Source: Salvelinus alpinus (Eukaryota; Chordata; Actinopteri; Salmoniformes; Salmonidae). From it: 64,000 bases of DNA. The number at the start of each line of letters is the position of its first letter. The first letter of the stretch is position 1. A program made the translations under genes and the position numbers. The stretch is from assembly GCF_045679555.1 (NCBI RefSeq), contig NC_092092.1:7247643-7311642 (forward strand), read 5' to 3'. Positions 19,801 through 22,800 of this stretch are shown piece after piece. The notes under the pieces were generated by a model, which saw only the letters and a program-made list of their open reading frames with translations, had not been told where the DNA came from and made no database searches.

Positions 19801-22800
19801 CCTTTATTTTTTTGAGCAGTATATATATATATATATATAACAAAAAAAAATACATACATAAATATATATGTGTATGTATTTTTTTTTTTTTTTTTGTTAA
19901 CTCTCAACCTAACTTACGTTACATAAACTGCAATGAAAATAGGTGGTCAGCTAGCTAGAAGGTTGTCTTTAATCGCAAAACATACCGTTATTTTCCAGTC
20001 CATTTAAATGTTGAGGTGAGTTAATCCTCCAACCGCTAGAGTGCCCGACGTTAGGGGGTGTCTGATGTTGGGGGAAAATTAGCTAGGCCATTGACAATGC
20101 CTGCATATCAACTGCAATCACTTCTGTAGTCAGGTGTTAGTGATGACGTACACCGCGCTTTATATCCATGGCCAAAAATGTGAAAGATGCGTCAATTAAT
20201 TAATCAAATGTATTTATAAAGCTCTTTACACCAGCAGTTGTTACGAAGTGCTTATACGGAAACCCAGTCTAAAACCCCAAAGAGCAAGCAATGCAGATGT
20301 AGCCGCGGTAGCTGTGCTGTAACATTAGCATGGCCGCGGTGACTGTGCTGTAACGTTAGCAAGGCCGCGGTAGCTGTGCTGTAACGTTAGCATGGCCGCG
20401 GTAGCTGTGCTGTATCGTTAGCACGGCCGCGGTGACTGTGCTGTAACGTTAGCATGGCCGCGGTGACTGTGCTGTAACGTTAGCAAGGCCGCGGTGACTG
20501 TGCTGTAACGTTAGCAAGGCCGCGGTAGCTGTGCTGTATCGTTAGCATGGCCGCGGTGACTGTGCTGTATCGTTAGCATGGCCGCGGTAGCTGTGCTGTA
20601 ACGTTAGCATGGCCGCGGTGACTGTGCTGTAACGTTAGCATAGCCGCGGTGACTGTGCTGTAACGTTAGCAAGGCCGCGGTAGCTGTGCTGTATCGTTAG
20701 CATGGCCGCGGTAGCTGTGCTGTATCGTTAGCATGGCCGCGGTGACTGTGCTGTAACGTTAGCATGGCCGCGGTGACTGTGCTGTAACGTTAGCAAGGCC
20801 GCGGTAGCTGTGCTGTAACGTTAGCATGGCCGCGGTAGCTGTGCTGTAACGTTAGCATGGTCGCGGTGACTGTGCTGTAACGTTAGCATGGCCGCGGTGA
20901 CTGTGCTGTAACGTTAGCATGGCCGCGGTAGCTGTGCTGTAACATTAGCATGGCCGCGGTGACTGCTGTAACGTTAGCATGGCCGCGGTGACTGTGCTGT
21001 AACGTTAGCATGGCCGCGGTGACTGTGCTGTAACGTTAGCATGGTCGTGGTGACTGCTGTAACGTTAGCAAGGCCGCGGTAGCTGTGCTGTAACGTTAGC
21101 ATGGCCGTGGTGACTGTGCTGTAACGTTAGCATGGCCGTGGTGACTGCTGTAACGTTAGCAAGGCCGCGGTAGCTGTGCTGTAACGTTAGCATGGCCGTG
21201 GTCGCTGTGCTGTAACGTTAGCATGGCCGCGGTAGCTGTGCTGTAACGTTAGCAAGGCTGCGATGGGTTATTTTTTCAAGGTTTTCTCTTATGTTAATGA
21301 TCTGCAGCTGTTTTGTTATTCATAACTGCATTGTGATTTGAATTTTGTGGAGATAACATTAAGTAAAAAATGTAAGGAATGAATTTAGTTTAAACGTTCA
21401 CACCCATAACGTTCACACCCATAACAGGAGCATCGATCCTACAGCTGTAAGATATTTATATACATAAAGATCTATAGGAGCAGAGATCCACAGCTGTAAG
21501 ATATTTATATACATAAAGATCTATAGGAGCAGAGATCCACAGCTGTAAGATATTTATATACATAAAGATCTATAGGAGCATCGATCCTACAGCTGTAAGA
21601 TATTTATATACATAAAGATCTATAGGAGCAGAGATCCTACAGCTGTAAGATATTTATATACATAAAGATCTATAGGAGCAGAGATCCTACAGCTGTAAGA
21701 TATTTATATCCATAAAGATCTATAGGAGCAGAGATCCACAGCTGTAAGATATTAAATACATAATCTATAGGAACAGATCCACAGGCATAAGAGAGACTGT
21801 TGCCAGCTAGTTATGTAATTGTATTAAGCCACTCAATTGTGTCAGTGTATTGATTCAGTTCTTGTTTCAGGTGTCGACATGGATCGATGGGAAAGTGCGT
21901 GCACTGTGTGCCCCTAGAGGTAAGTGCTCTTTCCTCCTCCATTCGTCCAACAATTGACTGTTTTGCTTTAAATTTGTTTTACGTGTCAACTTTGCTGTGA
22001 ATTTTTTATTATTTTCTATCTTCCAGCCTTTTGACGAAGAGTACCTGAGTCATCTAGAGCCACCTGTCAAACACATGTCATTCCATGCCTATATCCGCAA
22101 GCTGACAGGAGGCGCTGATAAGTGAGTGGCACCACACCTTCTGTAGCCTGGATCCAGATCTGTTTGTATTGTCTTGGCAACATGTTTGTCATGACAACGT
22201 CAAAAGAATATACACTCTGTGTACTCTGCTCTTCTCTAGCAAGAGGATTGGCCACATCCACAAGCTCTTTGTCTTTATTCAAGTCTTATTTTCCTCTACA
22301 GAGGGAAGTTTGTGGCCCTGGAGAACATCAGCTGTAAGATCAAGTCGGGCTGCGAGGGCCACCCTCCCTGGCCAGAGGGGATCTGCACCAAGTGCCAGCC
22401 AAGCGCCATCACCCTCAATAGACAAGTACACCCTATAACTCTCTCCACTTTACTGCCAAGGGTCCATCTCAATACTCTTTACTGCCAAGGGTCCATCTCG
22501 GGAAGTCTAAAGCATTGTGTCCCAAACTCGGTCCTGCCCCCCCCCCCCTGGGCGCATGTTAAATGTTTTATTTGTTTTGCACTACACAGCTGATTTTAAA
22601 ATAACCAACTCATCGAGCTTTGACTATTTTAATGATCTGTGTAGTGCTAGGGCAAAAACCAAAATGTGCACCTAGAGAGGGGGGTGGGGTAGGACCGAGT
22701 TTGGCACACCCTTTTCTAGAGTAGCTCCTTGTTTTCTTGCCTTCGTTTAGTCATGGCGTCTCACAGGATAGGTGATAACAAGGAAATATGGTGGATTGGT

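Follow-up and report, generated by a model that had tools for sequence, protein, structure and literature searches.

The locus considered here raises the question of why intron 4 of a fish nploc4 gene should hold, just ahead of exon 5, a row of short repeats resembling the end of exon 4 together with its 5' splice site, and what has become of the additional splice sites. The window, by which we mean the whole stretch of 64,000 nucleotides of Salvelinus alpinus DNA under analysis, includes most of nploc4 on the + strand. The gene was identified as that of NPL4 from tblastn matches to the human protein, which span approximately 11.9 to 43.8 kb of the window, and from the peptide of exons 4 to 6, which matched PDB chains of human NPL4 with an E value of about 1e-42. 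These two alignments and the sequence itself place exon 4 at 14831..15061 (+ strand), its real donor GT being at 15062. Exon 5, 49 nt in length, occupies 21871..21919 (+ strand) and has its acceptor after TTGTTTCAG; intron 4, between the end of exon 4 at 15061 and the start of exon 5 at 21871, measures 6.8 kb. In our reading, to which we assign a probability of roughly 0.87, the donor region of exon 4 seeded the array, the array in intron 4 predates the split between this gene and a second nploc4 gene, and the extra donors are by-products.

Tandem Repeats Finder (TRF) reported a period-50 array at 21426-21777 (7.2 copies, 94% matches), which a decayed eighth unit extends to about 21793, 78 bp before exon 5. 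Units u1 to u7 (21427..21759, + strand) are 49-50 bp long and each contain GCTGTAAGA; u1 is cut on the left and u7 is slightly decayed. The last unit, u8 (21760..21793, + strand), has lost its donor and is recognised by alignment with the last copy in the paralogue. The seed (15032..15080, + strand) consists of 30 nt from the end of exon 4 and the ~19 nt that open intron 4, and its left start at AAAGATC is shared with the array units and with a second copy, copy2, located just beyond the real donor. Unit and seed aligned without gaps over 15032-15078 with 41 of 47 positions identical and a score of 64, confirming an earlier note, made from the letters alone, that the ~50-bp units before exon 5 match the end of exon 4 and the start of intron 4. 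Exon 4 upstream of AAAGATC, when compared with the rest of intron 4, yielded only a chance-level 11-nt word (E 0.45).

Copy2 (15101..15144, + strand) carries a donor GT at 15131 and is cut on its right side by a Tc1-like insertion, probably at a TA. It aligned to the unit with 49 of 57 columns identical, although the last matching bases are probably the tip of the Tc1-like element, whose other copies begin alike. The earlier note had placed this copy at 15101-15146, 70 bases past the donor; the copy is real, but the donor-to-donor distance (15131 to 15062) is 69 nt and the copy ends at about 15144. Whilst u1 to u7 differ little from one another, u8 and copy2 are divergent. GTAAGA is intact in eight of the nine intron copies of the window.

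The 9-mer GCTGTAAGA occurs ten times on the + strand of the window and not once on the - strand. Its sites are the real donor at 15062, copy2 at 15131, the array at 21447, 21496, 21545, 21595, 21645, 21695 and 21744, and a coding site at 22334. Intron 4 accordingly holds eight extra donors, one in copy2 and seven in the array units, each identical over this 9-mer to the real one. The number eight had been given correctly before, but to describe these sites as consensus goes too far, since the donor they share, GCT|GTAAGA, is weak at positions -3 to -1. The coding occurrence (22331-22339), in an exon encoding ...ENISCKIK..., would be a potential exonic cryptic donor at 22334, and is present in the paralogue as well.

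An array of this kind could in principle be an independent genomic repeat that landed in intron 4, its likeness to exon 4 being due to chance or to secondary capture. The window holds many other minisatellites, and this is all that speaks for such an origin. Against it, the highest score among 2000 dinucleotide-preserving shuffles was 28 (mean 14), compared with 64 for the unit and the exon-donor seed, and the best score of the unit elsewhere in the window was 25. Furthermore, when 21 tandem arrays of the window, counted after merging overlapping TRF rows and setting aside simple repeats of 2-4 bp, were compared with 15 nploc4 exon stretches, the exon-donor array alone matched an nploc4 exon. 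A search of the genome (2.37 Gb, 928 contigs) with the array as query returned two places, the array itself and the exon 4/copy2 region; this search missed the decayed copies of the paralogue, and it excludes close copies elsewhere rather than old ones. No viral contig contained the unit as an exact 36-mer. Within that scope the unit is tied to the nploc4 locus and does not behave as a genome-wide repeat, the outcome that the earlier note had named as fatal to its reading. With the same copies also present in the paralogous intron, we consider the chance of an independent repeat to be negligible.

The paralogue was found with a query of exon 4 together with copy2, which detected a second nploc4 gene on C3. 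Its exon 4 region is 84% identical to that of the window gene, and a further C3 match to the copy region (81%) lies beside the paralogous exon 4. The segment of the paralogue that was examined is 9.5 kb long and contains exons 4 to 8. Over 399 nt of exons 6-8, dN between the two genes is 0.003 and dS is 0.32; on this comparison of sequences, the C3 gene is an old duplicate under strong constraint. Its divergence would fit the salmonid genome duplication.

Intron 4 of the paralogue is about 2.5 kb long and contains at least six decayed junction copies, A to F, split by other inserts. The donors of A and B lie 69 nt apart, as do those of E and F, while the unit starts of C and D are separated by 49 nt. 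Copies C and D are degraded, as is A in its left half (these three rows were aligned by hand); an insert interrupts D. The donor is retained as GTAAGA in four of the six copies. Copy B contains a 1606-bp element with inverted ends, CAGTGGGG/CCCCACTG, lying between two TA dinucleotides; with this element removed, copy B is continuous with the spacer and with copy C, whose start is 65 nt from that of B.

The outermost copies of the two genes also correspond. Copy u8 and copy F fall within one continuous alignment of 79.8% identity (window 21763-22499 against paralogue 4666-5448, in reverse-complement coordinates of locus L010), and each stands directly before exon 5 of its own gene. Together with the other copies of the paralogue, this places a tandem array in intron 4 before the genes diverged. 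The proposal that the ancestral intron 4 was a tandem array of its own donor region, later split by inserts, is therefore upheld by a paralogue that has the array and was split independently. Additionally, a spacer of the TGTATGTTGTATTGAAGC type between 69-nt units is common to both genes, following the exon donor in the window and copies A, B and E in the paralogue.

If this junction were simply prone to duplicate, copies might have been gained independently by each gene. Exon 4 has an internal near-repeat, AAAGATCTACAG/AAAGATCCACAG (11 of 12 positions alike), which could promote slippage, and the layout of copies does differ between the two genes. Neither the common spacer between 69-nt units nor the alignment of the outermost copy beside exon 5 is expected from separate gains, however, and we hold independent origin to be very unlikely. 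Next to exon 5, no units can be made out in the 3' part of intron 4.

The DNA that now separates copy2 from the array in the window includes several inserts. A Tc1-like transposon with its 3' end missing (15145..16450) follows copy2 and matches a copy at 34534-35917 with 79% identity; it contains a 40-nt inverted match (15287-15326/16404-16443) and a DDE_3 similarity which, at E 0.001, falls below the Pfam cut-off. The name Tc1 is used provisionally. Because the right end of this element is missing and other DNA lies beyond it, the original junction between copy2 and the array is not demonstrable within the window. Further along are a fold-back element with two 128-nt arms (17483..17758) and a transposon (18234..19839) in which two arms of ~600 nt, complementary at 98%, enclose a 402-nt centre and which matches HTH_Tnp_Tc3_2, the helix-turn-helix of Tc3-type transposases; the latter perhaps represents two head-to-head insertions or a fold-back transposon. 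A 31-bp minisatellite (20302..21266) is unrelated to the exon-donor array and has no match to any nploc4 exon. Each of the two genes has an element inserted at the TATATA of one of its junction copies (window 15140-15150; paralogue L010 about 6990-7000); the two elements are of different kinds, and TA-rich junction units may attract such elements.

The intron copies also record exon sequence that has apparently changed since. Within the peptide KIYR-xx-DPQL two codons vary. The window exon has AAT AAA and the paralogue exon AAC AAA, both encoding Asn Lys, whereas the PDB alignment gives Ser Arg for human NPL4. Among the array units, u2, u3, u5, u6 and u7 have AGC AGA, while u1 and u4 have AGC ATC; copy2 has AAC AGT and u8 has AAC followed by a deletion. 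In the paralogue, AAC AGA is found in copies B, E and F, and the second codon of copy A is likewise AGA; copy C has AAA AAA, and copy D is not comparable. An Arg codon (AGA) thus occupies the second position in five of the seven array units and in copies A, B, E and F, against Lys (AAA) in both exons. The intron copies appear to preserve the exon as it was before an Arg-to-Lys change and, given Arg in most of the comparable copies and Lys in both exons, the founding copy probably predates that change.

The 10-residue exon-end peptide translated from u2, u3 and u7 is identical to the human one at all ten positions. A reading of the array unit as a fully preserved ancestral exon was nevertheless rejected: since copy2, u8, B, E, F and the paralogue exon all have AAC at the first codon, Ser is better explained by an A-to-G substitution that arose later, inside the array. 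We treat Arg alone as ancestral, a view with which copy C (AAA) is not simply reconciled.

Taken together, these observations suggest the following history. Through tandem duplication, 30 nt from the end of exon 4 and the start of intron 4, along with the 5' splice site, were placed in the intron several times over, giving a founding array older than the divergence of the two nploc4 genes, with old units of about 69 nt and 49 nt. After divergence, this array was split separately in each gene: in the window by Tc1-like DNA at about 15145, in the paralogue by a different element within copy B. For the window gene, we infer that slippage or unequal exchange then expanded a short unit into the 50-bp array seen today; the outer units (copy2 at 15101 and u8) probably escaped homogenisation and decayed. 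Late re-amplification of this sort would account for an array that looks young although its origin is old. The extra donors, being weak and decaying without visible selection, would most likely be ignored or used only as rare aberrant sites.

Whether the extra donors have any action of their own bears on the last part of this reading. The U1 duplex energy of the shared donor, -4.3, is equalled or beaten at 102 of the 479 GTs of intron 4, the eight decoys included, and a donor weight matrix scored 44 intron 4 GTs as good, the decoys again counted in. Conservation was assessed over nine intron rows from both genes, the seven array units being entered as one row. The 12-nt donor core was changed at 11 of 107 sites compared with 35 of 199 in the 24 nt to its left (Fisher p=0.10), a comparison that gave p=0.71 once the degraded copy A was taken out; when the reference was only the 12 columns just before the core, the figures were 11 of 107 and 13 of 104 (p 0.67). 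Among the exon, copy2 and the common array unit, all five variable columns fall in the left 19 of 36 (p 0.03, post hoc). Functional selection on the donors was dropped as an explanation, since conservation of the core was not significant once the paralogue copies were included.

The decoy at 15131 could still compete with the weak real donor, retaining the TAA at 15063 and thereby exposing the mRNA to decay, so as to tune the dose of NPL4. The in-frame TAA is real, as the earlier note had stated, and splicing from 15131 would retain it within the extension past the real donor. Since the two sites have the same 9-mer and the real one is weak, context may decide between them; the predicted accessibility of 15131 is 0.38 compared with 0.56 for the real site, and the donor 9-mer is intact in eight of nine intron copies of the window. 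Conversely, the donor cores show no significant extra conservation, the 102 intron GTs (decoys among them) pair with U1 as well or better, and in amphioxus regular splicing is reported to be undisturbed by comparable repeats (PMC3087553). The claim that decoy choice lowers NPL4 output thus lacks support from donors that are weak, matched by many intronic GTs and without significant extra conservation. We judge dose tuning unlikely and regard the decoys as by-products, although there is a small chance that 15131 is of consequence.

A related proposal is that the array would fold so as to suppress its own donors, neighbouring units pairing through the self-complementary ACAGCTGT and burying the splice sites. 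The array was predicted to be more stable than all 100 shuffles (z-score -3.0), and its donors were predicted to be 0.11-0.17 unpaired compared with 0.56 for the real donor. Such folding and the altered access might be of consequence for the use of the donors. The accessibility control, however, concerned one array donor, and with its flanks shuffled this donor was just as inaccessible in 21 of 200 cases; values of 0.13 or below were also reached by 14 of 150 random GTs of the gene, and good folding would be expected of any tandem array of palindromic words. We consider self-suppression by folding improbable. The array as a source of alternative exons was also considered and discarded: on a crude pyrimidine score the best AG in 21240-21744 lies before 21281 (0.65), ahead of the array, the AGs inside the array reach 0.59 at best (those within the donor itself), and the real acceptor scores 0.71.

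A minisatellite seeded by an exon-donor junction had been thought to be without a described precedent. This is incorrect, as shown by amphioxus 'mirages' (PMC3087553, PMC3902484) and by trout irak3 (PMC6763605). Tandem repeats spanning exon-intron boundaries are named mirages in amphioxus Adh3 and are also present in the globins BflGb6/BflGb9 (PMC3087553), with PGBD5 and troponin C as further amphioxus cases (PMC3902484). Mirage units are described there as 10-160 bp long, with splice signals kept by many but not all; the edge units escape homogenisation while the inner units homogenise, and no sign of interference with regular splicing is reported (PMC3087553). The nploc4 repeat is alike in that its unit straddles the boundary between an exon and an intron of its own gene and its copies sit in the adjoining intron, between exons 4 and 5, in both paralogues. 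Splice signals are likewise kept by many but not all units (eight of nine in the window, four of six in the paralogue), and the inner units u1-u7 are homogenised with the edge copies u8 and copy2 excluded. In contrast to the amphioxus cases, it occurs in a fish, lies at a 5' splice site, is common to two paralogues, and has been split by inserts and, as we read it, re-amplified with a shorter unit. A human minisatellite, cited in a paper on G1P3 (PMC2572611), is also said to contain multiple splice donors and to be linked to an interferon-induced transcript, probably that of the 6-16 gene (IFI6/G1P3). It would resemble the nploc4 array in providing several donors and, to go by the title of the report, differ from it in that those donors serve the interferon-induced transcript.

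In rainbow trout, coding pieces are repeated in introns of both irak3 genes (PMC6763605): the first 15-17 nt of exon 5 occur four times in intron 4, exon 7 is repeated in intron 7, and a piece of exon 9 lies in intron 10. As in nploc4, pieces of exons are found in the introns next to them, and the repeats of exons 7 and 9 come with GT/AG signals, whereas the irak3 section traces no history and no fossil codons (PMC6763605). A trout irak3-like intron 7 motif with four repeats includes CAGGTGAGA and looks like another donor-bearing unit in Table 2 of that paper (PMC6763605). Intron gain by tandem duplication (PMC2891723) also copies splice-site sequence, but there a new intron arises within an exon whereas in nploc4 an existing intron appears to grow; a potato paper (PMC4974935) belongs to the same context. 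No junction array like that of nploc4 is described in four passages on sea bream myostatin-2 (PMC3045353). Our literature searches, none of which used nploc4 as a term, found no fish array with a comparable history.

The array in nploc4 intron 4 is a mirage-type minisatellite in a fish with an unusually readable two-paralogue history. A kind of repeat named in lancelets is in this way met in a fish gene, where the comparison of two paralogues gives glimpses of the original array, of the inserts that broke it up and of the later re-amplification. Tentatively, and with the odds on balance against so broad a generalisation, exon ends with splice sites might be recurrent seeds of intron growth in salmonid-type fish, as in nploc4 and trout irak3, lengthening introns, leaving spare splice signals and storing fossil exon ends older than gene duplication. 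A genome-wide scan of arrays against neighbouring exon ends would test the frequency of such intron growth, and the way in which the splicing machinery passes over a series of identical donors close to the real one.

Two further repeats of the window deserve mention in their own right. One 40-bp unit forms two arrays, at 46186-46823 and 52784-52977, which are in opposite orientation and about 94% alike. At 1967-2110, a UnaL2 LINE 3' element adjoins a tRNA-like match on the - strand, as in a tRNA-derived SINE.
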